A stretch of DNA of 64,000 bases from an uncultured Bacteroidia bacterium (GTDB lineage: Bacteria > Bacteroidota > Bacteroidia > Bacteroidales > UBA932). The notes under the pieces were generated by a model that saw only the letters and a program-made list of their open reading frames with translations, had not been told where the DNA came from and did no database searches. Positions 15,524-36,563 of the stretch are shown in pieces. Where the stretch lies: NCBI GenBank assembly GCA_902790635.1, contig CADASN010000009.1, forward strand, positions 1 through 64,000, read 5' to 3'. The translations under genes were made by a program, and so were the position numbers. Numbering within the stretch: the stretch's first letter is position 1; each line of letters begins with the position of its first letter.

Positions 15524-15528
15524 GCTTT

Positions 15529-15560
15529 TGCAAAATAAGCGCAGAAGCGCTATTTTTGCA
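15529..15560 (+). terminator. Hairpin between the DUF4380-like and panE-like genes, overlapping a promoter
   Basis: Arms 15529-15542 and 15547-15560 pair over 14 positions with two mismatches around a 4-base loop. The right arm contains the -7 box of the next gene. Confidence 0.5.
15551..15558 (+). promoter_or_regulatory. -7 box of the panE-like gene (leaderless arrangement)
   Basis: TATTTTTG ends 4 bases before the ATG, the same spacing as at folP and rpiB. Confidence 0.55.
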
Positions 15561-15562
15561 CT

Positions 15563-16570
15563 ATGAGATCAGCCATTTACGGCGCCGGATCGTTGGGAAC
15601 GGTCCTCGGCGCCTTCATCACCAAGAACGGCGGCCAGGTCGAACTCATCAACCGGAACCGCCCTCACATCGCTGCCCTGCAGGAGCACGGCGCCCACATC
15701 ACCGGCACGATGGAATTCACCCAGCCCGTCACGGCCTACACCCCGGATGAGATGTCCGGCAGCTACGATGTCATCTTCCTGATGACCAAGCAGCAGCAGA
15801 ACGAAGAGGTCGTCCGTTTCCTGAAAGATTTCCTAGCCCCGGACGGCGCCATCGTCACCATGCAGAACGGCCTGCCCGAACCGCAGATCGCAGAAATCGT
15901 GGGCGAAGAGCGCGTGCTGGGCTGCACCGTAGCGTGGGGTGCCACGATGCAGGAGCCGGGCGTTTGCGAGCTGACCAGCGCACCCGACAGCCTGACTTTC
16001 TCGCTCGGGTCGTTCGCCGTCAGGCCGCACCCGCACCTGCTCGAGGTCAAGCGCCTGCTCTCCCTGATGGGCCCTGTGGACCTGGAGTCCAATTTCATCG
16101 GCACCCGCTGGAGCAAGCTCCTGATCAACGCTTCCTTCTCCGGGATGAGCGCCGTGCTGGGCTGCACCTTCGGCGAAGCTGCCGGCGACAAAGCCTCACG
16201 CAAGATCGTCCAGGCCCTGATCAAGGAATGCATCGACGTCTGCGACAAGGGCGGCATCCGTATCGAGCCCGTCCAGGGAAAGGACATCGTCAAGCTGCTG
16301 GACTACAAGGGGCCCGTCAAGAAAGCCGTCGCCTACATGATCATCCCGCTGGCCATCCGCAAGCACGCCCGGCTCAAAGCCAGTATGCTCCAGGACCTCG
16401 AAAAGGGCAAGAAGACCGAAGTGGATGCCATCAACGGCGCCGTCTCGGCCTACGGCCGCAAGGTCGGCTGCCCCACTCCCTGCAACGACAAAGTCGTGGA
16501 GATCATCCACCGGATCGAGGCGGGAGAATTGCGTCCCGGCATGGATAATTTGAAGTTTTTCACCATTTGA
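15563..16570 (+). CDS. panE: 2-dehydropantoate 2-reductase (ketopantoate reductase) family
   Basis: A 335-residue NADPH-dependent reductase of the PanE/ApbA family, which reduces ketopantoate to pantoate for coenzyme A synthesis. The Rossmann nucleotide loop is AIYGAGSLGTVLG at residues 4-16. The family segment MQNGLPE lies near residue 98, and the catalytic-lysine helix GTRWSKLLINASFSG near residue 179. The C-terminal KARLKASMLQDL-type helix has the form HARLKASMLQDLEKGKKTEVD. Family paralogues can act on other 2-oxo acids, so pantoate is likely but not certain. The start codon follows a -7 box by 4 bases; a strong terminator follows the gene. Confidence 0.85.
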   Translation: MRSAIYGAGSLGTVLGAFITKNGGQVELINRNRPHIAALQEHGAHITGTMEFTQPVTAYTPDEMSGSYDVIFLMTKQQQNEEVVRFLKDFLAPDGAIVTMQNGLPEPQIAEIVGEERVLGCTVAWGATMQEPGVCELTSAPDSLTFSLGSFAVRPHPHLLEVKRLLSLMGPVDLESNFIGTRWSKLLINASFSGMSAVLGCTFGEAAGDKASRKIVQALIKECIDVCDKGGIRIEPVQGKDIVKLLDYKGPVKKAVAYMIIPLAIRKHARLKASMLQDLEKGKKTEVDAINGAVSAYGRKVGCPTPCNDKVVEIIHRIEAGELRPGMDNLKFFTI

Positions 16571-16597: not shown

Positions 16598-16624
16598 ATC
16601 CCACCGTAGAACGGTGGGATTTTT
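16598..16624 (+). terminator. Rho-independent terminator after the panE-like gene
   Basis: A perfect 10-bp stem (ATCCCACCGT) with loop AGA and five T. It isolates the 17.6-kb gene array that begins 28 bases later. Confidence 0.88.
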
Positions 16625-16652: not shown

Positions 16653-17411
16653 ATGAAATACTGTCCGAATTGTGGTGCACAGCTGCCGGACGATGCCCGG
16701 TTCTGTGGTAATTGCGGGGCTACCCTCCCCGCTGCGGAAGCCCCCGCCCAACAAGCTTATCCGCAGGCACCGCCTGCCTATCCATCCGCCGAACCTGCCT
16801 ACCAGCCCCCCGCACCGGAGGAGCTCAGCGGGGCGGTCCAGCTCTGCCAGGACGGCATGTACCGCTGGGTCTATGAAGTCAAGATGCTCAAGACCCCGGC
16901 CATGCTGTTCACGGTCCTCAAGGTCTTCGGCATCGCCATCGCCGCCATCTGGCTGCTGGTCAGCATCATGAGCGGCTTCGACGACTTCCTGGAGATGACG
17001 AAGATCTTCCTGATCATCCTGGCCGGCGCCGCCGTGCTGTCCGTGCTGGCATACCTGATTATCGCAGCCATCAACGGCGGCAAATACTGTGTCCTCTTCG
17101 AGATGAACGAGACCGGCCTGCGGCACATCCAGGTGCCTCGGCAGTTCAAGAAAGCGCAGGTAGTCAGCTGGATCACCATGCTGGCCGGCGCCATCGCCGG
17201 CAACCCGACCGTCACCGGCGCCGGCATCCTCGCCGCCAGCCGCAACAGCCTGGCGACCGAGTTCCCCAAGGTGCGCAGCATCAAGCCTATCCCGGCGCAG
17301 CACCTGATCAAAGTCAATTCCCCCTTCAGCAAGAACCAGGTCTTCGTTGACGAACAAGGCTACGATTTCGTGCTGAATTTCATCCGTTCCCATTGTCCCA
17401 AAGCCAATTAA
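16653..17411 (+). CDS. Zinc-ribbon membrane protein with PH-like C-terminal domain
   Basis: A 252-residue protein of unknown function. Residues 1-24 form a zinc ribbon (CPNCG and CGNCG, two CxxC pairs), then a Pro/Ala-rich linker (about 25-60). The block LCQDGMYRWVYE is followed by two membrane spans (about 88-108 and 120-143), then a soluble domain that may be PH-like. The C-terminal end DFVLNFIRSHCPKAN recurs in the gene at 17691. Lack of a signal peptide suggests the ribbon is cytoplasmic. An ATG two codons upstream (16647) is an alternative start. First gene of the 11-gene array; three bases separate it from the next. Confidence 0.7.
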   Translation: MKYCPNCGAQLPDDARFCGNCGATLPAAEAPAQQAYPQAPPAYPSAEPAYQPPAPEELSGAVQLCQDGMYRWVYEVKMLKTPAMLFTVLKVFGIAIAAIWLLVSIMSGFDDFLEMTKIFLIILAGAAVLSVLAYLIIAAINGGKYCVLFEMNETGLRHIQVPRQFKKAQVVSWITMLAGAIAGNPTVTGAGILAASRNSLATEFPKVRSIKPIPAQHLIKVNSPFSKNQVFVDEQGYDFVLNFIRSHCPKAN

Positions 17412-17414
17412 GCC

Positions 17415-17672
17415 ATGAAGTATTGTCCCAATTGCGGAGCCCAGCTCCCTGACAACGCCATGTTCTGCTCTGCCTGCGGCGCCCGCTTCGGCGCCCCCCA
17501 GCAGAATTACCAGCAACCCCAATACCAGCAGCCGCAATACCAGCAGCCCCAGAAGATGACCTATTGGGAGAAGGTCAAAGCCGCCCAGAAGAAGCAGAAG
17601 ATCAAGTGGTGGATGTGGCCCATCATCGCCGTCGGCACCTACCTGCTGCTCCAGTTGTTCCCCATCAGTTAA
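17415..17672 (+). CDS. Small zinc-ribbon protein with Tyr-Gln-Pro linker and membrane anchor
   Basis: An 85-residue protein: zinc ribbon (CPNCG, CSACG) at residues 1-25, a short QQP-type repeat (NYQQPQYQQPQYQQP), a basic segment (KVKAAQKKQKIK) and one C-terminal membrane span (about 66-83). No enzyme domain. The ribbon should face the cytoplasm. It lies between two genes that share the two-span/PH-like body, in the same array. Confidence 0.7.
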   Translation: MKYCPNCGAQLPDNAMFCSACGARFGAPQQNYQQPQYQQPQYQQPQKMTYWEKVKAAQKKQKIKWWMWPIIAVGTYLLLQLFPIS

Positions 17673-17690
17673 CCCTCGCTTCGTCGGAAA

Positions 17691-18359
17691 ATGGAAAATC
17701 ACAGCGACACACGCCTGCCCCTGGAATCCGTAGGATACGAGGGCAGTCGCGTCCGTCTCTGCCAGGACGGGAAATACCGCTGGACCTATGAGTTCAATAT
17801 GCTGAAGAATCCCGCCATCATCCTGGTGGTGTACAAGCTTTTCGGCGTCCTGCTGAGCATCCCTTTCCTGATCAACGTGATCAGCCTCGCCTCCAAGGGC
17901 GAATTGCAGAAGGAATGGAACGACCGGCTCTGGAGCGGCAGCAACCCCAAGATCTGGCTGGTGCTGATCGCTGTCTTTGTCGTCATCATCCTGATCGCCT
18001 ACCTGATCGTCGCCTGGACGTACGGCGGCAAGTACATCGTACACTTCACGATGGATGAGAAGGAGATCATCCACGAACAGGAAGCCGTCCAGTTTGACCG
18101 GGCGCGCAAACTCGCTTTCGTGACCTTCCTCGTCGGAATGTTCGCCAAGAAACCCGGCATGATGGGCCAGGGCATGCTCATCGCCTCCAAGAGCACGTCC
18201 ACCTCCGATTTCGCCAACGTCCGGCGGATCAAGCCCCGCCGTCTGATGGAACTCATCAAGGTCAACAAACTGCTCGACCGCAACCAGGTCTATGTCCCGA
18301 AGGAGGACTTCGACTTCGTCCTGGATTTCATCCGTCAACACTGTCCCAAAGCCAAATAA
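17691..18359 (+). CDS. Two-span membrane protein, paralogue of the first array gene without the zinc ribbon
   Basis: A 222-residue protein that aligns along its length with the gene at 16653: LCQDGKYRWTYEFNMLKNPA, two membrane spans (about 40-65 and 88-108), YGGKYIVHFTMDE, RIKPRRLMELIKVNK and the end FIRQHCPKAK. The N-terminal zinc ribbon is missing and replaced by about 20 polar residues. This shows that ribbon and body are separable modules. Function unknown; the soluble part may be PH-like. Confidence 0.7.
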   Translation: MENHSDTRLPLESVGYEGSRVRLCQDGKYRWTYEFNMLKNPAIILVVYKLFGVLLSIPFLINVISLASKGELQKEWNDRLWSGSNPKIWLVLIAVFVVIILIAYLIVAWTYGGKYIVHFTMDEKEIIHEQEAVQFDRARKLAFVTFLVGMFAKKPGMMGQGMLIASKSTSTSDFANVRRIKPRRLMELIKVNKLLDRNQVYVPKEDFDFVLDFIRQHCPKAK

Positions 18360-18362
18360 GAC

Positions 18363-18614
18363 ATGAAGTACTGTCCCAACTGTGGAGCCCAGCTCTCTGA
18401 CGACGCCATGTTCTGCCCTGCCTGCGGCGCCCGGTTCGGCGCGCCTCAGCAGCCCTATCAGCAGCAACCTTATCAGCAACAGCCCCAGTATCCGCAGCAG
18501 CCTCAGTATCCGCAGCAGGACGCCCCCGTGAAGGGGAAAAAGCGGTCCATCGTGGGCTGGGTGGTCGCGATCCTGGTCGGCGTCGCCATGGTGGCGATGA
18601 AGATGGGCTGGTAG
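18363..18614 (+). CDS. Small zinc-ribbon protein with Gln-Pro linker and membrane anchor
   Basis: An 83-residue protein nearly the twin of the gene at 17415: zinc ribbon CPNCG/CPACG, linker of repeated YQQ and YPQQPQ, a basic KGKKRS segment and one C-terminal membrane span (VGWVVAILVGVAMVAM). It starts three bases after the preceding stop. The alternation body/ribbon/body/ribbon suggests an ancestral two-gene duplication. Function unknown. Confidence 0.7.
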   Translation: MKYCPNCGAQLSDDAMFCPACGARFGAPQQPYQQQPYQQQPQYPQQPQYPQQDAPVKGKKRSIVGWVVAILVGVAMVAMKMGW

Positions 18615-18646
18615 CTTTCACGTATATCATCAAACACCTCCAAACT

Positions 18647-19345
18647 ATGGCATTCTGCACCCACTGCGGCGCCCAGCTTCCCGACGGCGCCAGATTCTGC
18701 ACCAGCTGCGGCACACCGGTTGCCGCCGCACCCACCGTCAACCCGGCTCCCCAGCCGCAGGCGCCTGTCCAACAGGCCCCTCAGCCCCAGGCACCGCAAT
18801 ACAACCAGCCTGTCCAGCCCCGGCCCACGCCGCAACCAGCCGCAGAGCCACCCAGGGGTGTCGTGATCGATGCTCCCGCGGACGCGACAGTGACGATTTC
18901 CGATGACGTCCCGCCGACGGAAGCTTCCACCAGCGCCCCCGCCGAAAAGGGCGAGTTCGTCGTCGCCAGCTGGTCCTCCCCCAAAAAGCAGACCCCGCAA
19001 CCCCAGGCCCCCGCGGCACCGCAGCAACCGTCCTATCAGCAGCCGCAGTACCCACAGCAACCGCAATATCCACAGTACCCGCAGCAGCCTTATCAGCAGG
19101 CTCCGCAGTATCCCCGGCAGCAACCCTATCAGCAGGCTCCGCAGCAACCGGCTGCAAACGGCCCGATGACCTTCAAGCAAGCGCTCAACAAAAGCAAGAA
19201 CGACGTCCTCGGCCGGTTCCAGAAGAAACCGGCCCAGCCAAATGCCGCGCCCGCAGTCAAGCCGAAGCGCAAATGGTATTTCTGGCTGATCGTCGCCCTC
19301 CTGGTCATCTGGATTATCTACTATCTTCTCAAAATCTTTGGTTAG
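18647..19345 (+). CDS. Zinc-ribbon protein with long Pro/Gln-rich region and C-terminal membrane anchor
   Basis: A 232-residue protein. The zinc ribbon (CTHCG, CTSCG) occupies residues 1-25. A long disordered Pro/Gln/Ala-rich stretch (about 26-175) follows, with repeats of PQYPQQ and YQQAPQ. Then come a short helical part (FKQALNKSKNDVLGRFQKK), a basic patch and a final membrane span (WYFWLIVALLVIWIIYYLL). It resembles the last gene of the array (33834). Such layouts suit a cytoplasmic scaffold or adaptor on the inner membrane, but no function is known. Six bases separate it from the first large gene. Confidence 0.7.
   Translation: MAFCTHCGAQLPDGARFCTSCGTPVAAAPTVNPAPQPQAPVQQAPQPQAPQYNQPVQPRPTPQPAAEPPRGVVIDAPADATVTISDDVPPTEASTSAPAEKGEFVVASWSSPKKQTPQPQAPAAPQQPSYQQPQYPQQPQYPQYPQQPYQQAPQYPRQQPYQQAPQQPAANGPMTFKQALNKSKNDVLGRFQKKPAQPNAAPAVKPKRKWYFWLIVALLVIWIIYYLLKIFG
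19021..19150 (+). repeat. Degenerate Pro/Gln/Tyr codon repeat
   Basis: Imperfect short tandem units such as CAGCAACC, CCGCAGTA and TATCAGCAG, encoding YQQP-like peptides. Related tracts occur at 17503-17553, 18445-18525 and 33916-34029. It is a coding low-complexity tract and not a CRISPR array. Confidence 0.7.
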
Positions 19346-19351
19346 ACCATC

Positions 19352-22300
19352 ATGCACCCCGGAACGACTCGTGTAGCCCACCGCGCGGCCTGGACGCTGT
19401 GTCTCCTGTTGCTGACCACAGCGGCCGGCGAGGCGCAGTCCGGCAATCGCTCGAAGGAGGAGCAGAAGAGTTACTGGGTTCTGGACCATGTGGAGACCGT
19501 CAGGAGCCAGGACATCCCTTGCGTCATCGTCTCCGAGAACGGCACCGTTTACTCGCGCACGACCACCTGGAGCAAAATCGTGCCCAACGAACATGGCGCC
19601 TTGGTCAATTCAGTCCGTTCGACGGACAATTTCCTGGTCAATGAGTCCTGGTCCTCCCCGCCCGGACGCATCGAGTACGGAAAGGAGGGCACGATCTCTG
19701 TCGATTACGGTTTCAATTCCTCTCCGGGGTTGGATGAATACAACCACCGCTACGCACTCCGTTATCAGATAGCTCTCTCCGCGGTCGTATCCAACCCGGC
19801 CTTCGAAGCGCTCCGTTTCGTCTGGGACTCCAACAGTGAGTCCTTCACGCCGTTCGTCGAAGGCGCCACCTCCGAGCGCGGCACACTGAAGATGAACAGG
19901 ACGCCCGCGGAGTCCCAGCTGCAGCTATATCTCTCCGACGAACCAAACTACCACCCGGATGGCAGCTGGCAGATGCTGGTCTATGTCTGGACCAGCATCT
20001 TCGACGACGCTAAATTCGGCGCTGACGACCTCTATAGCGACGACTACGGCAAGTACAAGTCCAACCTGGAGATCACCCAGCGCTACTGGTACCGATTCGA
20101 AGGGCCGGACCATGAAATCATCGAAGAGCATATCACAGGCACCGGTGAGAAAGGCGAATTCAACGGGCTACTCATTCCCCTGGCCATCCTGGGGCTGACG
20201 GCGGGTGCCGCCTTCGTCGTGAACCGGAAACGGCGGCCGAAGAATCTCGACCAGGCTGTTCTGCGAAAGACCACCCCGGATCCGGAGCCGAAGAAAGAGA
20301 AAAAGAAGAAGGACAATAAGAAAAAAGACGACAAGAAGAAGTCCGCGAAAGAAGAGCCGGAAGAAGAACCTTACCAGCCGCCCAGCACCTACCAGATCAT
20401 CTTCTGGAAGGATTTCGAGGACTCGCTCGTACTGGACGATCCGCCCGTGGTCATAGGCGCCCGCGTCGAAGAGATCACGCCGGAAGGCGTCCACAAAGAG
20501 CGGCCCGATATGACACGCAACATCTGGATCAGCGGCGAAGAGCACTGTGAGGTCACCGGGCAAAAGTTCGATGGCCGTTATATGACGGGCAAGGTCACTG
20601 CGCTGCGCAACCCGGATAAGAGTTGCCCGGAGACGGCCACGATACTTGTCAGCCTCAACGCCACCAAAGGCCGCATGCTTACCCACGTCCACTGCCTGGT
20701 CGAGGACGCCGCCGCCATCCTGGTCGAGCCGCAGATCACCTTTGCCGCCGGAGAAGGCAAGACCCTTTTCATGGAGTTCATGCTCTATGGTGCGGCCTCG
20801 TCACCGGAAAGCGTGGAGATCACGCTGGACCAGAAGGGTTATGAGCATTTCTCGTCCGAGTTGGAGCAGGACGAGAATGACCCGGATCTCTTCCGCATCA
20901 ACCTGACCGAACACGGCAAGGACGAAGACCTCCCCGGCACCGTGGAGGATTACCTCTGCCGCATCGAGGTAAAGCCGCGCATGGAACGGCCACCGGTCGT
21001 GGAGACCTTCCACATCAACCGCATCCACCTGGGCCTCCGTGTCGAACTGCAGGCCCTGAAGGCTTTCGCCGTGGAGCTGGAGAGCACCTTCGACCACGAC
21101 ATCCTGCCGCCGCGCGGCTCCACGCGCCGCGTCAAACCAGCCGAGAGCCGCATCGACATGCAACTGGTCGTGGTGGATGAGGAGCACGACAACAGGATCG
21201 GGCCCGTCAAGCCCGACAAAGGTCCCTTCTTCACCTTTGAAGACGTATTGGAGGGAAGCACGCTCTTCACGAAGAATCCGCATGCGGGTTATGTCCCCAG
21301 TTCAGGCGATTTCTATCTGTATGAAAATCTTTTCTTCCGGGACCCGGAGGGGAAGGATATCGGCTCTCCCTGCCAGACGCTCGATTTCAAGTACGAATTC
21401 CGCGACTGGACGAAGGACGGGGTTTTCTGGGGCGTCATCCGCCCCACCGGCGGATTCATGGTCTCGCCCAACCGCTGCCACGCCAAGGTCACGGTGCGGA
21501 TGGAGTGGCACGGGCAGGAGTTCAAGAAGGAGTTCATCGTCCCGGTCAACTCCCAGCCCTACCGCATCGTGGACATCCCTCCCGGCGGCGACCTCACCCG
21601 CGCCCTCGCCCGATATGAAAACGAAGACCTCCGGCGGATGGAGAACCTGGTCGATATCCGCCGCAAGATCGTCCTCGACACGAACTTCCGCGGACTGAGT
21701 CCGTTGTTCTACAAACTGTCCGTGATGATCGAAGGCCACGATGTGGCGTTCGGCTTCGACGACGCCGACTACAACGGCATCATGTCCATCTTCGACCGCT
21801 ACTGCCAGGGGAAGATCGGATATGCCTTTGCCGTCAAGGATTTGGCCTCGACAGGCGACGAAGACCTTGATGCGGCCCTTGCCACCATCGCCGCGATGGA
21901 CCGCTCCATCCCCGTCATCGTCCTGCGCATCGGACTGGGCATCGTGACGGCAGGAGCGTCGGAGGTCGTCCTGACCCCGCTCAGCGCCATCACGGAGTTG
22001 AAGGAGTACGTGGACAGTGGCGGCGACAGCGTATGGGGCGGATTCAAACAGGTCAGTGTCAAGATCATCGCCTGGGAAGCCGGCTTCGCCATCGCCGGCA
22101 AGGTCCTCAAGAGAGTCGCCAAGACCCAATTGGCTCAAAAGCTCAAGCAGAAGTGCGCTGAGAAACTCAAAGACCTCGGCAAGAAACTCGGTATCCTCGG
22201 AGAGAACGCCTCCAAAGCGCACGACGCCGCCAAGGCCAACCGGTCCCTGGCCGGCCGCAAGCCGTACAGCAGCGCGCCAAAGGCCGACCGGATCGCCGCC

Positions 22301-23428
22301 GGCGCGAGCAAGACCAAAAACATGGTCAAGACGGCCACGGAGATGGGTGACGACGCCATCAAGAATATGCGCAGCAAACCCCTCTCCTCGAAATCGATCT
22401 TTGCCGAGACCTGCGCCAAGGAAGCCCGCAAGGATGCGCAGAAGATTGTGGACAATTTCAAGAGCGTCATGAACAATCCCACGGCCACCAAGGAAGAGGT
22501 CCGCCGCGCCACCCTGGCCCTGCAGGGCAACAAAACCGCCCAGAACATCCTGCGCAGCCAGCCATCCGATATGCTCCGGGCCTCTTTCAACGCCGAGATG
22601 AGGAGCATTTACAAGGAGGTGGACGAGGTTGCCGTCAAGCGCCTGAAGGAGCGGCTCAAGGTCATGGGCGTTGAGAATCCCGAGATCCGCATCAGCAGCG
22701 CCACCGGCAACGCCGGGGACGACTTGCTGCAGGGCCGGAAAATTGCCGCCGACCGCGACGCCACCTTCCAGTTCAAGAACAAGAAGGGCAAGTGGGTGGA
22801 CCTGAATGAAGAAGTGATGAAGGACGCCTACGGAGAAGCGTTCAACCAGACGCAATACAATTTCATCCCGACCGACCGGAAGGAGATGCTCAAGACCCTG
22901 ACCAAGTCCGACCAGGCCCTGGTCAACGGAGCCTACGGACTGGAATCGTACGGAGACGATCTCGGCCGCATCATCGACCCGACCCGGGCCACGGAAAAGC
23001 TTTTGGACGCCAACCGCGTCGCTGACGCTTATGTGTACAAATGCAAGGAATGGCTGAAGCAGGGCGCCGAAGCAAAAGCCCAGGCCGAGAGACTGCTGGA
23101 GCAGGGGTTCCGCGACGAGGCTATGCACATCATCGGTTATGGTGATGCGCTTATCGAGGAGGGCATGCGCCAGAACGTCAAACAGTTCAAGCGCATCTTG
23201 GTCCCGCGCATAGAAGCCGCCGCCGCAAAGGGCGTTGCAAAAGACTATACCCAGCTGATGGCCAAGATGCGCGTGCTTGAGAGCATGGGCACGCCGCCTC
23301 CTGCCGGGGCTATCTCCATCACGCTGGAAGAAGCCCGCGTCACCCTGGAGACCCAGTTCGGGACCACCATAGAAAAAGTCATTGAAGAGTGCGGCCAGGC
23401 TGTTCGCGATGTCAATGCAGTATTATAG
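19352..23428 (+). CDS. Large single-span membrane protein, array paralogue 1 (function unknown)
   Basis: A 1358-residue protein with no recognised family. Order of parts: signal peptide (1-29); exported beta-rich domain (about 35-260) beginning SYWVLDHVE; membrane span (272-290) followed by NRKRR; a Lys-rich then Glu-rich linker (about 313-345); and beta domains (about 346-740) opening with KDFEDSLVLDDPP and GARVEEITPEG. A helical region follows with a hydrophobic stretch IPVIVLRIGLGIVTAGASEV (about 853-872) and Lys/Ala-rich helices. The C-terminal domain (about 1050-1358) holds ATGN, then KIAADRDAT (Asp1134 and Asp1136), then YGLESYGDDLGRIIDPTR. The positive charges after the span predict an outside N-domain and about 1,070 residues in the cytoplasm. 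It aligns almost end to end with the next gene. Confidence 0.8.
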   Translation: MHPGTTRVAHRAAWTLCLLLLTTAAGEAQSGNRSKEEQKSYWVLDHVETVRSQDIPCVIVSENGTVYSRTTTWSKIVPNEHGALVNSVRSTDNFLVNESWSSPPGRIEYGKEGTISVDYGFNSSPGLDEYNHRYALRYQIALSAVVSNPAFEALRFVWDSNSESFTPFVEGATSERGTLKMNRTPAESQLQLYLSDEPNYHPDGSWQMLVYVWTSIFDDAKFGADDLYSDDYGKYKSNLEITQRYWYRFEGPDHEIIEEHITGTGEKGEFNGLLIPLAILGLTAGAAFVVNRKRRPKNLDQAVLRKTTPDPEPKKEKKKKDNKKKDDKKKSAKEEPEEEPYQPPSTYQIIFWKDFEDSLVLDDPPVVIGARVEEITPEGVHKERPDMTRNIWISGEEHCEVTGQKFDGRYMTGKVTALRNPDKSCPETATILVSLNATKGRMLTHVHCLVEDAAAILVEPQITFAAGEGKTLFMEFMLYGAASSPESVEITLDQKGYEHFSSELEQDENDPDLFRINLTEHGKDEDLPGTVEDYLCRIEVKPRMERPPVVETFHINRIHLGLRVELQALKAFAVELESTFDHDILPPRGSTRRVKPAESRIDMQLVVVDEEHDNRIGPVKPDKGPFFTFEDVLEGSTLFTKNPHAGYVPSSGDFYLYENLFFRDPEGKDIGSPCQTLDFKYEFRDWTKDGVFWGVIRPTGGFMVSPNRCHAKVTVRMEWHGQEFKKEFIVPVNSQPYRIVDIPPGGDLTRALARYENEDLRRMENLVDIRRKIVLDTNFRGLSPLFYKLSVMIEGHDVAFGFDDADYNGIMSIFDRYCQGKIGYAFAVKDLASTGDEDLDAALATIAAMDRSIPVIVLRIGLGIVTAGASEVVLTPLSAITELKEYVDSGGDSVWGGFKQVSVKIIAWEAGFAIAGKVLKRVAKTQLAQKLKQKCAEKLKDLGKKLGILGENASKAHDAAKANRSLAGRKPYSSAPKADRIAAGASKTKNMVKTATEMGDDAIKNMRSKPLSSKSIFAETCAKEARKDAQKIVDNFKSVMNNPTATKEEVRRATLALQGNKTAQNILRSQPSDMLRASFNAEMRSIYKEVDEVAVKRLKERLKVMGVENPEIRISSATGNAGDDLLQGRKIAADRDATFQFKNKKGKWVDLNEEVMKDAYGEAFNQTQYNFIPTDRKEMLKTLTKSDQALVNGAYGLESYGDDLGRIIDPTRATEKLLDANRVADAYVYKCKEWLKQGAEAKAQAERLLEQGFRDEAMHIIGYGDALIEEGMRQNVKQFKRILVPRIEAAAAKGVAKDYTQLMAKMRVLESMGTPPPAGAISITLEEARVTLETQFGTTIEKVIEECGQAVRDVNAVL

Positions 23429-23453
23429 CCACGAATTTTAACACAGTCCGCCT

Positions 23454-27485
<4,032 letters not shown>

Positions 27486-27540
27486 ATAAAACGGTATTCA
27501 ATTTGTATATATTTATAATATTTGACTTAATAACACTGAA

Positions 27541-28683
27541 ATGAAAAGAATTGCATTACTCCTTGCCGGCCTGCTGCTCTGCGGCACGGCCCTGCTGGCC
27601 CAGCGGCCCGCCAGGGAAACCTTTACCGGTCGCGTCTCCTGCGCTATGGGCAGTGAATCCTCGGCACCCGTTTCCTTTACCGTGGACAACACCACGGGAG
27701 ATTTCTCCTTCACATCCAAAGGCAACGGCGGACGTGTGGGCGCTTTCACCTGGAAAGGCAAGATGCCTTCCGTCAAGAGCCAGAATCTTGCTGCGAACGG
27801 CGCTGTATGGACTTTCCAACTCACCGAATGGTCTGATTTCACTGTAGGAACCCGGGAGAAAGACCGAGCCACTGGCAAAATGGTCGACACAACAACCCGT
27901 CTCAAGAAGGTCCAACGTAGCGGCAATACCACCGCGCCCGGCTTTGGAACCAGCGACGGCAATAGCATCACCCTGAATATCCGGATTCCGTACCAAATCA
28001 GCAGCCAGAACGAAGCCGTCCCGATCACGTTCACCGTCACCCTGGATGTCTCGAAAGGTTATAAGGGCCCCATCAGTTCGGCTCCCAGTTCGACCGGCGG
28101 CAACACCTTACGCATGCCCACAGGCACAAATGATCCCGTCCATATCGATTATGAGAACGGTATTTCCATCGGCGGCACCGGCAATTCCACCACCCGCGTT
28201 AGCCGCGCTTCCGTCGGCGGCGTCTCGTTTGCCCTGGCACCCGATTATTCCGTCAGGAGGGAGAACAACCTGGGCGGCGGCGAGAGCATCCGGATTTCTT
28301 CCAAGTCCAACCCGAATGATTTCCTGTACGCGGAAGTCCAGAAAGAGGGGCTGTCCAATCTCCGCAACCTCAGCTCCGACCAGGTGGCGGACCTGCTCGC
28401 CGTCCGGGTGCAGTATCTGAACACTGTGATGCCGGGCGTGCGGATGTCCGAAGAGCCGAAGATCTACTTTGACGACAATTCGGACGGTTACTACCACCAG
28501 CACGCCTACTCCTACGGAAAGGGAAAGGATTCCCAGGGCCGGAATGTCCAGGTATACTGCGAGGCCACGAGTGTCAACAAAAAGATGATCACCGCCGGCT
28601 ATGCCGTCGCTGCCGACCAGGGCGAGCTCAACGCGCTCACAGACATCTATGTTGACGTCGTCAATGCGGCAGCCGGGAAATAG
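27541..28683 (+). CDS. Exported protein with C-terminal GGxTF domain
   Basis: A 380-residue exported protein: signal peptide (residues 1-20, ALLAQ), an N-terminal beta-rich region of about 170 residues with no recognised family, a Gly/Thr/Ser-rich linker, then a domain (about 225-380) beginning VGGVSFALAPDYSVR. This domain, here called GGxTF, recurs at the C-terminus of the next gene and twice in the gene at 41487. No lipobox and no membrane anchor, so probably periplasmic or secreted. A 55-base AT-rich gap precedes it, the largest gap in the array, and might hold an internal promoter. Confidence 0.7.
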   Translation: MKRIALLLAGLLLCGTALLAQRPARETFTGRVSCAMGSESSAPVSFTVDNTTGDFSFTSKGNGGRVGAFTWKGKMPSVKSQNLAANGAVWTFQLTEWSDFTVGTREKDRATGKMVDTTTRLKKVQRSGNTTAPGFGTSDGNSITLNIRIPYQISSQNEAVPITFTVTLDVSKGYKGPISSAPSSTGGNTLRMPTGTNDPVHIDYENGISIGGTGNSTTRVSRASVGGVSFALAPDYSVRRENNLGGGESIRISSKSNPNDFLYAEVQKEGLSNLRNLSSDQVADLLAVRVQYLNTVMPGVRMSEEPKIYFDDNSDGYYHQHAYSYGKGKDSQGRNVQVYCEATSVNKKMITAGYAVAADQGELNALTDIYVDVVNAAAGK

Positions 28684-28685
28684 TC

Positions 28686-29864
28686 ATGAGAAAGTTCCTG
28701 ATTATCACCGCGCTGGCCCTATGCCTGCCCACGACCCTCCCGGCCCTCGCCCAGATCAAGCCGGGAGGAAAATGGGTCATGCACGATGTGAAAATCATCA
28801 ACAAGTCCAGCAATCCGAATTACACCTACACCCCCACATCGGTCTCGTACAAAAACGAGCGGACCTATTCCTATATTGCCAACCGCAAAGGCGAAGACGG
28901 CAAGGTGCACACCATTTCGGATGTCGCGACCGTCTCCCTGTCGTGGGGAGCCCCTCCTCCCATCATCAAATCCACCGAAGAAGGGAAACTCCAGATCGGC
29001 TATGAACTGGAGACAGCGCCTGCCCTGTACGAAGACGAGGTTTACCGGCGCATGAGGCCGGCTCCCTCTTACGACCTCGACATAAAACTGATCCTCACGC
29101 GTGTGGACGGCAAATTGGGTTTCCAGAATCCGGAGTGGAGATACATGCCCAAATTGCCCGCCTGGGGGTCCGCATCCGGCCAGATTCCCCTGCTTTATTC
29201 GGGAGAAGAGTTTAGTTTCTACGGTATCGACGTGACGGACGGGAAGTGGCAGCTGGTCCTGCGCATCATGGCCAGCGTCGGAGGCTACGAGGAGGTAGAA
29301 TACGATGAGGAGAAAGAATGGCACAGCACCTATGTTATCGAGCATTACTATCGGTACGAGACCGACAAGACCAACTTCAGGCGCGTATCCGCAGGAGGCC
29401 TCACCTTCGAGCTGGACAGCGATTTCACCATTTCGGAAAGGTCGCCGCTGAATCCCGGAGAGACCCTGGTGATCGTCCCGGAAGGCAAGCGCAGCAAGAA
29501 CGACCAGATGTTCCTGATCCTGAACACGGACGTGCTTTCCGGCATCGACGTGAATGCGATTCCTGCCGAAAAACTGTCAGACATGATGAAGACAGCCGCA
29601 AATAAACTCGCAGACACGGCTGCCGGCAGCTATGAATTCACCAAGAAGTCCGAGATCAGCTACTACATGGACGGCCGGTATCCGACCGCATACACAGAGC
29701 TCAAGGGCAAGGATGCCAAGGGGAATCCCATCACCTGCCGCGTGGAGAGCAAACTGGTGAACGGGAGCGTCGTTTCCGCCTGCTCCATCGCATCCGACAA
29801 GGAGATGCTCTCCGGGATGCGGGGCATTTATGGCAAAGTCGTCTCCGCCGCCGCTGACCGCTAG
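28686..29864 (+). CDS. Exported protein joining a large-protein N-domain to a GGxTF domain
   Basis: A 392-residue exported protein with signal peptide (1-22, PALAQ). Residues about 25-225 resemble the exported domains of the large paralogues: GKWVMHDVKI at the start, SWGAPPPIIKSTEEGKLQIGYELETAP in the middle, DGKWQLVLRIMAS and a closing VIEHYYRYE. Residues about 235-392 are a GGxTF domain (AGGLTFELDSDFTISE, then a final SDKEMLSGMRGIYGKV). It looks like a soluble version of the exported sensor part. It starts two bases after the preceding stop, so the two are surely co-translated. Confidence 0.7.
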   Translation: MRKFLIITALALCLPTTLPALAQIKPGGKWVMHDVKIINKSSNPNYTYTPTSVSYKNERTYSYIANRKGEDGKVHTISDVATVSLSWGAPPPIIKSTEEGKLQIGYELETAPALYEDEVYRRMRPAPSYDLDIKLILTRVDGKLGFQNPEWRYMPKLPAWGSASGQIPLLYSGEEFSFYGIDVTDGKWQLVLRIMASVGGYEEVEYDEEKEWHSTYVIEHYYRYETDKTNFRRVSAGGLTFELDSDFTISERSPLNPGETLVIVPEGKRSKNDQMFLILNTDVLSGIDVNAIPAEKLSDMMKTAANKLADTAAGSYEFTKKSEISYYMDGRYPTAYTELKGKDAKGNPITCRVESKLVNGSVVSACSIASDKEMLSGMRGIYGKVVSAAADR

Positions 29865-29885
29865 TATGATCCAATCCCGCTGTCA

Positions 29886-32800
29886 ATGAAACGAAAAGTC
29901 CTTCCTTTCCTCCTGGTCCTGCTGGGCCTTCTGTCCACCCTGCCGCTTCCGGCGAACGAGGGTAAGTGGGTCCTGCAGAAAAACAACGTTTTGGGCGGGT
30001 CCGGCCCCAAAGCCTTCCGTTTCAAGGTCGGGAAGGCTTCCGCCACCGTAGTCTCCACCGGTTCGGCGAACGGCACTACCTTCACCTGGGTGGACCCCGC
30101 CGACGAGATCAAGTTCGGAGACGAGGCCAAGCTTGGGTTCCCGGTCGAGATCAACTGTCTCGATCCGGCGACGACCCGGCTGATGCGGAACCAGAAGATG
30201 ATGAGCCTGACCGTCACGGTCGAGATGTGGGATCCGTATGAATGCGCGGACTACACGAAGGACAACAACCCGTTCAAATGGCGGACGGAAGTGACCGAGA
30301 GCGGCATGGTGACCCGCAGGCCGGATGTGGATATGCGGGAGGAGTACTTCACCCCCACGGCAGAATCCATCCTGACCATCACGGTCGTCGCTTCGCTCAA
30401 CACGCCCATCACCATCGACGGGAAATCGGTTTCCGGACTCGTCGGAGGCAGGACTTATATTTATAAATATGTAGGGGACAAACCCATTTACGATGTAAAG
30501 AACGAAGGCAAGAAAAAGCCCGGCGAATTCGGGAAAACCACGATTCCGACCGCCCTGTTCTGGATCGGCGGCACCCTGGTGGGCGTCATCGGGGCGAACG
30601 AGATCCGCAAGGGCCTGAAGAAGAAAAAGAAAAAAGACGGCAAGGATCCCGAACCGGAGGAAGAGAAGCCCGAAAAGCATCCCAGCACCTTCCGGATGGT
30701 CCTCTACAAGGAGTTCGGCGACACGCTGACGGTAGGCGCCGAGCCGAAAGTCGTAGGCGCCCGCATCGAAGAGCAGACCCACGACGGACGGATCGTGGAT
30801 CGGCCGGACCTGTCCCGCACGATCCGCATCCTCGAAGGCGAAAACATCCAGCTGCTCTCCACGGGTTTTGACGGCAAATATATGTCCGGATCCATCTGCG
30901 TGTCGGAGCCGAAGCAGTCGGCTATCCCGCCCAAGGGGACGGTCATCTTCTACTTCGAGACGCCCACCGGCATCCTGCGCAACCACGTGGAATTCTATAT
31001 CGAAGACAGCAAGAGAATCGTTTTCACCCAGCAGAACATCACCTTCGTAGCCGGGCACCAGAGCGCTGAGACCGTCTATTTCTATGTAGTCGGCCTCGGC
31101 AACGAACCCGTCTTCGATGTCAAGTTGGAGGATGGCAAGAATAAATCTTTCGAGATCATCTCCCACGTCCGGCCCGACAAGGAAGGATCCTGGAGCGTAG
31201 ACCTGAAGGACTGCCTGACGGAGATTCCCGAGCAGATGGCCGGCAATATGGACAACTGCTATCTCGCCGTCACGGCCAAACAGATCCTCAAGGACGGCGA
31301 GCGGGAGATCACCGAACGCCTGCCCGTCCACCGCTTCTACGAAGGCCTGCGCATGGTCGTCGATCACGTCAAGGCCTACGCCGTCGTGGCGGGCACCGAG
31401 TCCATCAACTGCACGGAGGAGATTCTCAAGAGCCAGAACCAGATCCTGAGAGAGAACCAGAGCCTGAAAGGCATGGCGAACTGGGACGAGAGCGATGTGT
31501 CCATCGTCCCCGCCCACACCCGGCTGGAGCTGACGCTCTTCGCCTGGAACAAAGAGAAAAACATGATCGGTTCGCCCTCACCTCAGGACATCAATATCGT
31601 CTTCGAGGATGTGAGCGAGTCGCTGGAATGGTTCGGCAAGAAGGGGGCCGAGATCACCGAGCCGGTCCGGGCGCTGGGCTTCAAGGTGGAACAGTTCGGT
31701 ATCGACTCCCGACCGATCAGCCAGCGTTCCGACGTGTCGGGACACACGATGACCTATGTTTATGAGATCATCCCTTCGGCCATCATGGTGCCGCCCAACC
31801 GCTGCAAGGTCGCCATCACGGCCACCGCTTCCTACGATGGACGCACCTTCGAGGACAAGCAGACGCTGATGGTTATCTCGATGCCTATGCGCTATGCGCC
31901 GGACATGGAGTCTCTCACCAATATGATGAAATTCGATGCGCAGGTCCAGGACAGGCTGGTGATGATGATTACCAAGCTGACGAACCTGCCCCAGGCGCCC
32001 CAGTTCAATGCCCTGATCTGCAAATGCCGCCTGATGCTCGACTCCTTCGACGAGCGTTTCGGATTCTATATGCCGGACTTCTACACCGCCAAGTCGCTCT
32101 ATCTGCGCACGATGCGGGGCGAGATCGGTCCCCTGTATGTCGCCGAGCACACGTATTGCTGGGAAGAAGTGTATTTCGGAGATGCTTTCAACATGTGTAT
32201 GGAGACCTTTGAGGAGCACGAACCGAAGACCGTCATGGGCCGGATACTGCTCGGCATCGTCACGCTGGGCTACTCGGAGATCCTTTACTACACGCCGAAA
32301 CGCTTCCTGCTCGAATGTCAGAAAGCCGGCGAGAACTACGACAACAATTTCTTCGACAATTTTGCGGTAGGCGCTAAGTTCGCTTACTTCGAGGCGTGCC
32401 AGAACTGGGCCGGGCAGAAAGTGATCGGCGGAGCCATGAGCGAGATTTCCTCCACCCAGTTCGGCCAGGCGCTCAAGGAGATGGCCCATGAGATCCACCG
32501 GGACATCCGGTCCGTCGAGCGGAGTCTCTGCAAGAACTATTCTTCCATCAACTTCGTCAGCAAGCTGGCCCGCAACGGCCGCAAACTTGCCCAGATGAAA
32601 ATCGACGGAAGCAAGCTCGGTTTGAAAAAGCTGGAAATCGGCAAATACAAGATGGAGTCTTCCCCCGACCTGAAGGAGCTGAAAGCCATCGCCGACCGGG
32701 CCCAGAAACTGGGCGAAGCCAAGGTCAAGCAGTTCATCAAGGCCTGCCAGGACCCGAACATCCCGCCCGAAGAACTCAAGAAACTGGTGCTCTCCATCCA

Positions 32801-33806
32801 GTGCGACCACTACGCCAAGACCTATCTTAACTCCGCCAAGGTCATCGACAAATACCGCTTCCGCTTCACCACGGAGAATACGATCCTGCACGAGAACGTG
32901 AAGCGGGCGCTCAAGAAGCAGCTGGCGAAGGATTTCAACGTACACGAGTCCCAGATCACCTTCTTCGAGGCCACGGGCAATGCGACCAAGGTCAATGCCG
33001 TCAATTGCAAGAAAATCGGCATGGACCACGACTATACCATCCGGGTCAACGGCAAAGACCTGCCCGAGGAAGTGGCCGGCCGTTACTGGAACGACGAATA
33101 CTGCTACCAGGCCACCGGCAGCAGGAACTTCTCGCCCTGGGATGCCGACAAGCTGGCCTACCAGGCCGAACAGACCGCCGTCTCCAACATAGGCCCCGAA
33201 TCCTTCGGGTCTGACGTGAAGAAAGTGATCGATCCCAAGGGAACCGCCACGGAAGCCTTCGACGATGCGCAGTTGGTCCAGGATGTCCAGACCTACAAGA
33301 TCCGGGAGCCGCTTAACAAGTTTGAAGAATATATGAGGAAGGCCTCCCAGGCCCCGGATCCGCAATGGAGAGAGGCATTCGAGGCCGAAGCCTTGAAGAA
33401 ACTGCGCGAAGCCTGCCGACAGCTGCCCAAGGGAATGGACCGCACCATGGAGAGCAAACTGCAGGTGGTCGCGGACTGGGGCAAACTCGACAAACTCAAT
33501 CCGGAGAAGCTCCGCGCTGCATACGAACTCCGCGGACGCATCGAGCATATGCTTTCCCGCACCAGCGAAGGCGACAGCAAGGCGCTGGTCGAGCTATATG
33601 CCTCTTACCAGATGGACGGGAAGTCTCTCGGCAAGGAAGCGGAGAAAGCTTTCTCGCTCATCACGGAGGTGGACGAGATCATCGCGAAAGGCCCGGACCC
33701 TTCCAATTATATCAGGATCAGGGAAGAAGACGTGGAGCGGGCTGTTGTCCAGTCCATCAAAGGCGGCTTCCATGAGAAACTGGACAACGATTCAGACTGG
33801 TGTTAA
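29886..33806 (+). CDS. Large single-span membrane protein, array paralogue 3 (divergent)
   Basis: A 1306-residue divergent paralogue of the genes at 19352 and 23454. Signal peptide (1-23, PLPAN), an exported domain beginning GKWVLQKNN, span (about 222-240), linker KKKKKKDG then Glu-rich. Next is the beta module STFRMVLYKEFGDTL with GARIEEQTHDG, further beta domains, a helical region (about 670-960) unusually rich in Cys, and the C-terminal domain with EATGN, KKIGMDHDYT (Asp1047 and Asp1049) and FGSDVKKVIDPKG. The C-terminal 130 residues differ from the other two. Keeping the ATGN and DxD motifs despite wide divergence marks them as functional. Confidence 0.78.
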   Translation: MKRKVLPFLLVLLGLLSTLPLPANEGKWVLQKNNVLGGSGPKAFRFKVGKASATVVSTGSANGTTFTWVDPADEIKFGDEAKLGFPVEINCLDPATTRLMRNQKMMSLTVTVEMWDPYECADYTKDNNPFKWRTEVTESGMVTRRPDVDMREEYFTPTAESILTITVVASLNTPITIDGKSVSGLVGGRTYIYKYVGDKPIYDVKNEGKKKPGEFGKTTIPTALFWIGGTLVGVIGANEIRKGLKKKKKKDGKDPEPEEEKPEKHPSTFRMVLYKEFGDTLTVGAEPKVVGARIEEQTHDGRIVDRPDLSRTIRILEGENIQLLSTGFDGKYMSGSICVSEPKQSAIPPKGTVIFYFETPTGILRNHVEFYIEDSKRIVFTQQNITFVAGHQSAETVYFYVVGLGNEPVFDVKLEDGKNKSFEIISHVRPDKEGSWSVDLKDCLTEIPEQMAGNMDNCYLAVTAKQILKDGEREITERLPVHRFYEGLRMVVDHVKAYAVVAGTESINCTEEILKSQNQILRENQSLKGMANWDESDVSIVPAHTRLELTLFAWNKEKNMIGSPSPQDINIVFEDVSESLEWFGKKGAEITEPVRALGFKVEQFGIDSRPISQRSDVSGHTMTYVYEIIPSAIMVPPNRCKVAITATASYDGRTFEDKQTLMVISMPMRYAPDMESLTNMMKFDAQVQDRLVMMITKLTNLPQAPQFNALICKCRLMLDSFDERFGFYMPDFYTAKSLYLRTMRGEIGPLYVAEHTYCWEEVYFGDAFNMCMETFEEHEPKTVMGRILLGIVTLGYSEILYYTPKRFLLECQKAGENYDNNFFDNFAVGAKFAYFEACQNWAGQKVIGGAMSEISSTQFGQALKEMAHEIHRDIRSVERSLCKNYSSINFVSKLARNGRKLAQMKIDGSKLGLKKLEIGKYKMESSPDLKELKAIADRAQKLGEAKVKQFIKACQDPNIPPEELKKLVLSIQCDHYAKTYLNSAKVIDKYRFRFTTENTILHENVKRALKKQLAKDFNVHESQITFFEATGNATKVNAVNCKKIGMDHDYTIRVNGKDLPEEVAGRYWNDEYCYQATGSRNFSPWDADKLAYQAEQTAVSNIGPESFGSDVKKVIDPKGTATEAFDDAQLVQDVQTYKIREPLNKFEEYMRKASQAPDPQWREAFEAEALKKLREACRQLPKGMDRTMESKLQVVADWGKLDKLNPEKLRAAYELRGRIEHMLSRTSEGDSKALVELYASYQMDGKSLGKEAEKAFSLITEVDEIIAKGPDPSNYIRIREEDVERAVVQSIKGGFHEKLDNDSDWC

Positions 33807-33833
33807 TGAATGATTAATGATATATAATTGATT

Positions 33834-34304
33834 ATGGCTTTTTGTTCAAAATGCGGCGCCAACCTGCCTGACGGCGCCAGATTCTGCAACGTCTGCGGCG
33901 CACCGCAGAACAATGCTCCGGCACAGCCGTACCAACAACCTTATCAGCAACCTCAACCCTATCAGCAGGCACCGCCGTACCAGCAGCCTCAATACTTCCA
34001 GCAGGCTCCGCCGGTGCAGCCTTATCAGCAGGCACCACAGGCCCAAAGGCCTCCCAGGAAGAAGAAACGCGGTGGTTTTATCCGGCTTCTCCTGTTCCTG
34101 ATCCTGATTGGCGGCGGCTACTTCGGCTACAAGTGGATGAAGGATCAAGGCCTTTTCGATATGGGCAAGGATCCGCTTCCGCGCGAGAATGTCTTCCCCG
34201 ATGATACGGACTATCCGGGAGAAACGGACTACTACGACAACGCTGAAGACGAAGGCGATTACTCCTCCATCCGGGATTTCCTCCTCGGCGGGGGTGATGA
34301 CTAG
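33834..34304 (+). CDS. Zinc-ribbon protein with Gln/Pro-rich linker, membrane span and acidic tail
   Basis: A 156-residue protein closing the array: zinc ribbon CSKCG/CNVCG (residues 1-25), a Tyr/Gln/Pro repeat region (about 30-70), basic patch RPPRKKKRGG, one membrane span (FIRLLLFLILIGGGYFGY, about 82-98) and an acidic tail of about 55 residues rich in Asp/Glu. It is close to the gene at 18647 but has a tail beyond the membrane. An ATG two codons upstream is a possible alternative start. It ends 5 bases before the convergent HTH gene. Confidence 0.7.
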   Translation: MAFCSKCGANLPDGARFCNVCGAPQNNAPAQPYQQPYQQPQPYQQAPPYQQPQYFQQAPPVQPYQQAPQAQRPPRKKKRGGFIRLLLFLILIGGGYFGYKWMKDQGLFDMGKDPLPRENVFPDDTDYPGETDYYDNAEDEGDYSSIRDFLLGGGDD

Positions 34305-34309
34305 TATTA

Positions 34310-34510
34310 TCAATCATTCTCATCCAGCTCGAAGATAGCATCGGTCGGCTTGCCGAAATACCGTGCTATCTTCAGGGCAAGTACAGTGGACGGAACGTAC
34401 TTGCCGGATTCGATGGAATTGATGGTGTTGCGGCTGACCCCGATGGCGTCGGCCAGTTGCTGCTGGGTTATATCCAGGATGGCGCGCTCTACCCTTACCG
34501 TGTTTTTCAT
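34310..34510 (-). CDS. Small XRE-family HTH regulator
   Basis: A 66-residue DNA-binding protein that is almost only a helix-turn-helix: MKNTVRVERAILDITQQQLA, then GVSRNTINSIESGKYVPS and KIARYFGKPTDAIFEL. It resembles the stand-alone Cro/CI-type regulators often paired with a membrane protein gene. The ATG overlaps the end of the upstream membrane protein gene by 4 bases, so the pair is translationally coupled. The chosen start excludes a longer frame that runs out of phase through the membrane gene. Targets unknown; self-regulation is likely for such pairs. Confidence 0.88.
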   Translation of the reverse strand: MKNTVRVERAILDITQQQLADAIGVSRNTINSIESGKYVPSTVLALKIARYFGKPTDAIFELDEND

Positions 34511-36532: not shown

Positions 36533-36563
36533 TGAGATTGCAATCTTGACCAATTACCGAATT

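Follow-up and report, generated by a model that had tools for sequence, protein, structure and literature searches.

An eleven-gene array from an uncultured Bacteroidales bacterium, with giant proteins that join variable heads to a conserved C-terminal domain and a possible role in signalling

The window analyzed here, a stretch of 64,000 nucleotides from an uncultured Bacteroidia bacterium, probably of ruminant-gut origin (Bacteroidales, UBA932; contig CADASN010000009.1 of assembly GCA_902790635.1), contains an array of 11 ORFs (16653–34304, all on the + strand) that comprises five zinc-ribbon genes, one ribbon-less body gene, three paralogous giants (1306–1358 aa), and two exported proteins, and that, with its 17.7 kb, takes up ~0.8% of a 2.24-Mb draft genome. 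Members of this gene set recur together in other genomes, its homology reaches beyond the phylum, and its giants combine a conserved C-terminus with diversified and exchanged heads, all under purifying selection. Tentatively, and as a serious possibility short of a probable one, we read the cluster as an inner-membrane receptor-like signalling module with interchangeable periplasmic heads, a conserved cytoplasmic effector domain, and membrane-anchored zinc-ribbon adaptors. In this reading the topology is predicted from hydropathy and from charges, weakly so in the case of giant 2, the supposed physical interaction comes from gene linkage, and sensing, catalysis and a target are likewise presumed.

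A sequence-only reading of the window had described 11 same-strand genes with gaps of 2–55 bp, bounded by a terminator on the left and by a convergent gene on the right, and all ORFs and gap lengths were recovered (from gene 1 to gene 11: 3, 18, 3, 32, 6, 25, 55, 2, 21, and 27 bp). The left boundary has a terminator-like hairpin (16598..16620, +; 10 pairs, TTTT tail), though the scan as a whole returned 20 sites vs. 20.3 in shuffled sequences, i.e., no excess over chance, and on the right an ORF from 34310 runs in the opposite orientation. An empty-site comparison around the gene at 36546 with four cluster-free congeners was discarded, as these lack a conserved neighbourhood there and insertion is thus indistinguishable from loss.

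The five zinc-ribbon proteins and the ribbon-less body of the earlier reading were also recovered, with Zn_Ribbon_1 (PF13240) above the Pfam cut-off in genes 1, 2, 4, 5, and 11. Gene 1 (16653..17411, +; 252 aa) joins an N-terminal ribbon (E 6.7e-11) to a body with two hydrophobic spans and is 39% identical to a protein of Acetoanaerobium noterae, and gene 3 (17691..18359, +; 222 aa) is its paralogue without Zn_Ribbon_1, 42% identical to the gene-1 body. By Pfam and hydropathy, gene 2 (17415..17672, +; 85 aa; Q/P-rich linker), gene 4 (18363..18614, +; 83 aa) and gene 5 (18647..19345, +; 232 aa; long Q/P-rich linker) consist of a ribbon, a linker, and a C-terminal TM, and in gene 11 (33834..34304, +; 156 aa; alternative TTG start upstream at 33828) an acidic tail follows the TM. 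TcaA (NF053815) is likewise a membrane-anchored protein whose N-terminus carries a CxxCG...CxxCG ribbon, but its match to gene 1 is limited to the ribbon (residues 1–34, 15.4 bits vs. an NCBIfam cut-off of 550) with no similarity beyond it, and genes 2, 4, and 5, unlike TcaA-type proteins, end at the TM and have no extracellular domain. Gene 1 also gave a sub-threshold Pfam match to DUF2207_C (E 0.006, 16.7 bits vs. a cut-off of 33), and in L147 a DUF2207 protein (PF09972/PF20990) sits one gene from a body gene; a DUF2207 origin of the body was rejected, the body-family profile reaching an hhalign probability of 3% against that protein.

Gene 8 (27541..28683, +; 380 aa) and gene 9 (28686..29864, +; 392 aa) are the two secreted proteins for which domains shared with the giants had been noted; their C-termini resemble each other (E 1e-12), and the head-like N-terminus of gene 9 resembles the giant-2 ectodomain (E 5e-10). 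The three 1.3-kaa proteins, gene 6 (giant 1, BIG1; 19352..23428, +; 1358 aa), gene 7 (giant 2, BIG2; 23454..27485, +; 1343 aa) and gene 10 (giant 3, BIG3; 29886..33806, +; 1306 aa), are paralogues as had been read, giants 1 and 2 sharing ~54% identity and giant 3 ~24–25% with both.

Giant 1 is laid out as an exported head, an anchor at ~272–290, a beta-like region, a helical region, and the conserved C-terminal domain. A single membrane span had been ascribed to all three giants; ahead of the cytoplasmic part, hydropathy identifies it clearly in giant 1 (2.26) and fairly well in giant 3 (1.56), but does not support it in giant 2 (maximum 0.98 in the 130 residues preceding the cytoplasmic part), where the anchor was assigned by alignment with giant 1 and a Lys run downstream of it. 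In a set of 43 giants from Bacteroidales, the most hydrophobic stretch before the cytoplasmic part reached ≥ 1.6 in 16 and ≥ 1.2 in 34, K/R were richer after the anchor stretch than before it in 42, and the N-terminus was hydrophobic in 36. A further contact with the membrane may be made by a second hydrophobic stretch (~residues 828–873), which exceeds 1.6 in 12 of 29 giants. The topology predicted from hydropathy and positive charges puts the C-terminal domain in the producer's cytoplasm, and is compatible with the exported and cytoplasmic parts proposed before (weakly for giant 2).

The C-terminal domain (~350–400 residues) is preceded by a conserved hydrophobic stretch of the GLGIVTxGxSE type, and its near-invariant set is DxDx[T/S], K, and ExxRQxxK. 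Among the giants compared, DxDx[T/S] is kept in 45/45 and ExxRQxxK in 41/45. The first motif reads DRDAT in giant 1 (22751..22765, +), DRDVT in giant 2 (26808..26822, +), DHDYT in giant 3 (33024..33038, +), and DFDGT in the divergent giant L135. In profile A4, which like A2 was built from the giant-2 C-terminal region (26331..27482, +), both Asp are invariant in 24 rows, and ExxRQxxK (27216..27239, + in giant 2) falls on invariant columns. Judging by their conservation, these charged residues look like an active site.

The giant C-terminal domain was found in 26 of 400 same-genus genomes, a lower bound, as the search missed at least one existing giant (G1060; L135, 149 bits to A4); in the wider samples it was found only in the window's own genome (1/393 for the order, 1/395 for the phylum), and given that missed giant, negatives in genome samples are not proof of absence. 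Giants were counted from the collected set after leaving out partials (L030, L040, L042, the second of L031, fragments) and duplicates. A body gene lies on 25 of the 37 giant-bearing contigs, in 24 of the 25 on the same strand, and is present in 23/26 giant-positive vs. 18/374 giant-negative same-genus genomes (Fisher p 3e-23, only indicative because related genomes were treated as independent). Since 17 of those 18 giant-negative genomes have no giant in the stretch examined, the body is no dedicated partner of the giants, and for five giants (G957:C13, G1063:C8, G1005:C80, G1005:C13, and G889:C72) the stretch examined contained no body gene. Small zinc-ribbon genes adjoin giants, and certain neighbouring genes turn up next to several of the clusters; in most relatives' loci genes were called by codon usage, which missed short Q/P-rich ones. 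The carriers are known here mainly from metagenome assemblies.

One record, A. noterae (NZ_CP154629.1, ~1.700–1.707 Mb; L051), reached via gene 3 in the plasmid search, contained the clostridial relatives found: a body, a zinc-ribbon protein, and a giant on one strand, in a region where the record has no annotated feature. Its body is 39% identical (E 2e-56) and its giant C-terminus aligns with an hhalign probability of 99.7% (E 1.3e-26; 100 bits to A2), vs. 0.1–0.3% for a 1044-aa HEXXH-type, a 961-aa zinc-ribbon and a 731-aa protein, which served as controls and were rejected as giant relatives. It differs in the multi-TM N-terminus of the giant, whose head falls in no common cluster, and in the C-terminal position of the ribbon in its 366-aa zinc-ribbon protein. 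The alignments thus show homology that spans two distant phyla, with members in Bacteroidales and Clostridia. Had the genes never been found together elsewhere, the earlier reading would have lost its footing; they do recur, in the body–giant linkage and in A. noterae. The cluster is no chance assembly, and, as far as gene content tells, its reduced recurring unit is body plus giant, which the array of eleven genes expands.

The two ends of the giants differ in diversity, the C-termini of 44 giants forming one cluster and 42 heads nine clusters at E 1e-3 (eight at 1e-2), with the short heads of L081 and L083 left out as their start codons were possibly miscalled. Between L028 and L032, residues 7–491 share 43–68% amino acid identity with 35–52% difference at fourfold sites, residues 492–1211 share 94–99% with 0–16% fourfold difference, and the last segment 85% with 26%. 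Between L034 and L035, the first two segments share 18–44% identity and the third segment 64%, and beyond residue 395 the two are 87–96% identical. Such mosaics indicate that some heads are exchanged by recombination, and exchange also affected the C-terminus of giant 3 of the window. Values of dN/dS for 4 regions in 12 pairs, except for two heads in which it was not computable, lay at 0.02–0.52 and imply purifying selection; the head had the highest of the four regions in 6/10 pairs and was not the fastest in 4/10. Heads that are varied and swapped over a conserved inside form the pattern expected of receptors. The swaps themselves do not reveal what is recognised, and dN/dS is well below 1.

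The earlier impression that the cluster matches no characterised family or system was upheld by the profile searches. With Pfam, only the zinc ribbons passed the cut-off among all eleven array genes, and 0/10 heads did. NCBIfam, PADLOC, and PHROGs (run without genes 2 and 4, PHROGs also without 5 and 11) gave nothing above cut-off beyond ribbons; below it, genes 1, 5, and 11 matched SCO2400_fam, GltJ, and phrog_2546 through their ribbons or linkers. No known enzyme matched the inner domains among the hits listed from Pfam, NCBIfam or profile searches vs. the PDB, and the best PDB hits of the profiles (a gp10 chain, E 0.25; LRO-C2-35, E 0.74) were both weak. The matches listed from the open-access literature, as far as their text was available, contained no description of such a cluster. 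This novelty is one of sequence profiles, and a fold could place the cluster in a known kind.

In the proposed module, each giant would begin with a signal peptide and expose ~200–250 residues to the periplasm as its head, cross the membrane by one anchor with a Lys-rich stretch behind it, and place ~1000 residues in the cytoplasm, comprising beta-rich-looking domains, a helical region with the conserved hydrophobic stretch, and the C-terminal domain. The head, possibly together with the exported products of genes 8 and 9 (the latter with its head-like domain), would meet a periplasmic signal. This signal would alter the C-terminal domain, which is most likely enzymatic and would act in the cytoplasm. 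The TM-anchored zinc-ribbon proteins, with their ribbons toward the cytoplasm, and the body protein may cluster or scaffold the giants, and head swapping would change specificity. The suggestion in the sequence-only reading of a membrane-spanning complex that senses something outside and acts inside is therefore still plausible. That the cluster further represents an undescribed transmembrane receptor class of Bacteroidales and Clostridia, in which swappable heads control a novel enzymatic domain (DxDx[T/S]...K...ExxRQxxK) in the cytoplasm and zinc-ribbon adaptors assemble the giants, we consider unlikely. If true, it would be a receptor architecture without counterpart in the libraries searched, shared by two distant phyla, with head exchange in gut bacteria. 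Should its heads detect rivals, phages or molecules of the host, it would behave like a bacterial set of modular receptors for immunity or sensing.

Purifying selection throughout, body genes that often stand alone, and flanking genes that recur beside clusters would also suit an envelope-maintenance or mechanical complex, in which the giants would link the inner membrane to structures of the periplasm, their inner part would serve as a scaffold and the ribbons as assembly factors, with no signalling; we hold this to be rather unlikely, since patchy occurrence (26/400 congeners) and heads swapped onto near-identical bodies better fit a facultative, specificity-changing system, and the conserved charged residues resemble an active site. 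The same patchiness, together with several paralogues per locus and head exchange, speaks for anti-phage or anti-competitor defence receptors whose heads detect envelope perturbation and whose C-terminal domain triggers an abortive response. This is distinctly unlikely, as PADLOC matched none of the nine array proteins compared (all but those of genes 2 and 4) at E ≤ 1 and one of six relatives at chance level (E 0.15), relatives were found neither in phages nor in viral contigs (in the plasmid set, A. noterae only), and dN/dS gave no sign of positive selection.

The C-terminal domain could belong, as a divergent member, to a known enzyme superfamily, either the nucleotidyltransferases of Pol-beta type or the HAD-type hydrolases, which we judge quite improbable. 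By eye, a strand-like IRVF, an ATGN loop and, 13–14 residues on, DxD opening a strand-like run (by crude propensities) recall the former, and DxDx[T/S], including DFDGT in L135, resembles HAD motif I. The DxD is conserved, but the ATGN loop has no Gly-Ser pair, the conserved K follows, rather than precedes, the Asp that could be HAD motif IV, A. noterae has a much longer spacing between the motifs, and neither superfamily appeared for 24 members (L135 excluded) among the Pfam matches listed or in profile searches vs. the PDB.

The cluster shares with polymorphic toxin systems its giant multi-domain proteins with swapped modules, mosaic recombination and several paralogues per locus, and the GLGIVTxGxSE-type stretch and C-terminal domain could be a translocation region and warhead of a delivered toxin with small immunity neighbours. 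The variable part of polymorphic toxins is reported to be their C-terminus (PMC3482391), so this is very improbable for giants in which the mosaic is mainly reversed, with a variable N-terminal head and a constant C-terminus that is predicted to lie in the producer's cytoplasm and has no standout Pfam toxin domain in 24 members (best 25 of 58 weak families).

The cluster occupies positions 16653-34304 of contig C9 (CADASN010000009.1), part of a draft genome of 2.24 Mb with 83% completeness, and comprises eleven genes, all on the + strand and 2-55 bp apart. Zn_Ribbon_1 exceeded the curated Pfam cut-off in genes 1, 2, 4, 5 and 11, and the same-strand array of zinc-ribbon proteins and giants described in the sequence-only reading was thus borne out by open reading frames, gaps and Pfam ribbons. 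A body with two hydrophobic spans is common to genes 1 and 3 (42% identity); genes 2, 4 and 5 run from ribbon through a Q/P-rich linker to a terminal transmembrane (TM) segment, a layout to which gene 11 adds an acidic tail. The giants are genes 6, 7 and 10. The N-termini of genes 8 and 9 resemble signal peptides, and one C-terminal domain is common to both; gene 9 has a head-like domain as well. In every computable case dN/dS was 0.02-0.52, and the cluster genes therefore behave as working genes.

Ribbons aside, no cut-off was passed in Pfam (all eleven genes searched) or in NCBIfam and PADLOC (nine genes each), as the claim of no known function had anticipated, and PHROGs gave weak matches only (seven genes searched). 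Ten heads, the N-terminal parts of the giants that are predicted to be exported, had no Pfam match above cut-off, and 24 C-terminal domains drew only weak and scattered hits to Pfam, the best with E 8e-4 for a single member, among the first 25 of 58 families listed. Profiles of the cytoplasmic part or the C-terminus had no convincing match among solved structures; the apparent novelty of the cluster is one of sequence.

The C-terminal 360 residues of 44 giants formed one BLAST cluster, whereas 42 usable heads fell into nine (29, 3, 3 and 2 members, and five single), and different heads were found on otherwise near-identical giants (L028/L032; L034/L035). Between loci L028 and L032, identity was 43-68% and fourfold-site difference 35-52% up to residue 491, 94-99% and 0-16% from there to residue 1211, and 85% and 26% past it; between L034 and L035, segments 1 and 2 had 18% and 44% identity, segment 3 64%, and the sequence from residue 395 87-96%. 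Because silent sites jump as well, the head differences probably arose by recombination, not by selection alone. Exchange reaches the C-terminal end too: giant 3 of the window and its counterpart in L028 share 93-98% identity, apart from a single segment, starting at residue 1081, where identity is 74%. When four regions were compared, dN/dS was highest in the head for six of ten pairs, all ratios being <1.

In the C-terminal domain (26331-27482 in giant 2), the divergent 24-row profile A4 has eight invariant columns: one for the Ala of an AT pair, two for the Asp residues of DxD, one for a Lys, and four for the E, R, Q and K in ExxRQxxK. Among 45 giants read in three batches (40, four and one), DxDx[T/S] occurred in all and ExxRQxxK in 41, the exceptions being Glu to Asp in three and a shifted Lys in one; the giant L135 of genome G1060 has DFDGT at the DxDxT place, without the Ala of A4. 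These residues look like an active site, with putative catalysis. By eye, they would permit an NTase-like or HAD-like assignment, for which no profile support was found (24 members against Pfam, among the families listed; profile against PDB).

The body was present on 25 of the 37 giant-bearing contigs, on the same strand in 24, and nine of the 12 contigs without it belong to genomes with a body elsewhere. By genome, it occurred in 23/26 giant-positive versus 18/374 giant-negative ones, and one of these 18, G1060, does carry a giant. Two observations count against such a unit: for five giants (L084, L086, L089, L093, L095) the stretch fetched contained no body, and for 17 of the 18 genomes with a body only, no giant was found in the stretches fetched, some of them on contigs of 4-7 kb. 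Divergent loci (L080, L081, L082, L083, L087, L088, L092) hold, according to our own gene caller, little beyond the body and one giant; of the eleven-gene array proposed as a system, the recurrence of body and giant therefore stands, while its full make-up is an expansion of this smaller unit.

A scan of GTDB contigs returned 21 loci (Bacteroidales, Bacteroidia, one Prevotellaceae), several on contigs of genomes also counted in the same-genus survey; by title, six of these records (L027, L028, L034, L035, L044, L046) come from ruminant stomachs (yak, goat, roe deer), and the other 15 titles name no organ. Profile A2 of the C-terminal domain was found in 26/400 same-genus genomes, own genome included (11/150 of the better ones), and solely in the own genome in the order (n = 393) and phylum (n = 395) samples; profile A5 of the body matched 41/400 same-genus genomes and, in the phylum sample (n = 345), the own genome only. 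The same-genus A2 search overlooked at least the G1060 giant, so these counts are lower bounds. That giant (L135:10966-14865, - strand) scores 149 bits against A4.

A search with gene 3 picked up Acetoanaerobium noterae (Clostridia). Successive genes on one strand encode there, in order, a ribbon-body protein (39% identity to gene 1, E 2e-56), a membrane protein of 142 aa, a protein of 366 aa whose ribbon is C-terminal, and a giant of 1576 aa. The C-terminus of this giant matched profile A3 with 99.7% probability (E 1.3e-26) and A2 with 100 bits; as controls, three large but unrelated proteins encoded at such loci scored 0.1-0.3%, and a divergent true giant not in A3 100%. The N-terminal part of the A. 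noterae giant is multi-TM and lies outside all head clusters. Judged from these alignments, a counterpart spanning Bacteroidales and Clostridia is real, the cross-phylum match being one record. That record (L051, NZ_CP154629.1), filed as a plasmid, has 2.63 Mb and four listed features, and looks like a chromosome.

Other body genes adjoin different large proteins: a 1044-aa TM protein with a HEXXH-like motif (HELFHHRQ) and a DUF2207 protein (L147:9394-14774), and a similar, cut-off TM protein (L140:269-3909). A 731-aa protein near a body gene, on the opposite strand (L138:10951-13146), and a 961-aa protein with an N-terminal zinc ribbon adjoining a giant (L041:276-3161) share 32% identity over 537 aligned columns, forming a second large membrane-protein family. 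The variety of partners suggests that ribbon and body proteins are a wider toolkit serving several large membrane proteins.

The N-terminus was hydrophobic in 36/43 giants, the stretch preceding the cytoplasmic part reached hydropathy ≥ 1.2 in 34 and ≥ 1.6 in 16, and K/R were more abundant after it than before in 42; in giant 2, hydropathy of this stretch gave no clear anchor. Together these features place the head probably in the periplasm and the remainder inside. The cluster is real, recurrent, cross-phylum and modular, and exchangeable outer parts on a fixed inner part would most simply make the giants receptors, in which changing the outer part alters specificity and the inner part keeps the output. 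The products of genes 8 and 9 would be candidate soluble periplasmic partners, and the zinc-ribbon proteins would be located at the inner membrane, their ribbons facing inwards. We hold this receptor scheme as a whole only tentatively, at somewhat less than even confidence; the earlier suggestion of sensing outside and acting inside is plausible. A structural envelope complex is unlikely, though still a serious contender; a defence receptor, in purpose a sub-case of the receptor scheme, is more doubtful, and a toxin system appears improbable.

To the right, the array meets a convergent segment (34310-34980, - strand) with a small HTH-type gene, presumably XRE-type, and a small membrane-protein gene. 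The flanking site was not conserved among the four cluster-free congeners compared. Flanking genes of the window (14642-16570 and 36546-38345) turn up again beside related clusters: a 293-aa gene at L027 and L029-L032, one that we take to be PanE-like at L031 and L032, and a presumably oadA-like one at L029, L043, L046 and L047.
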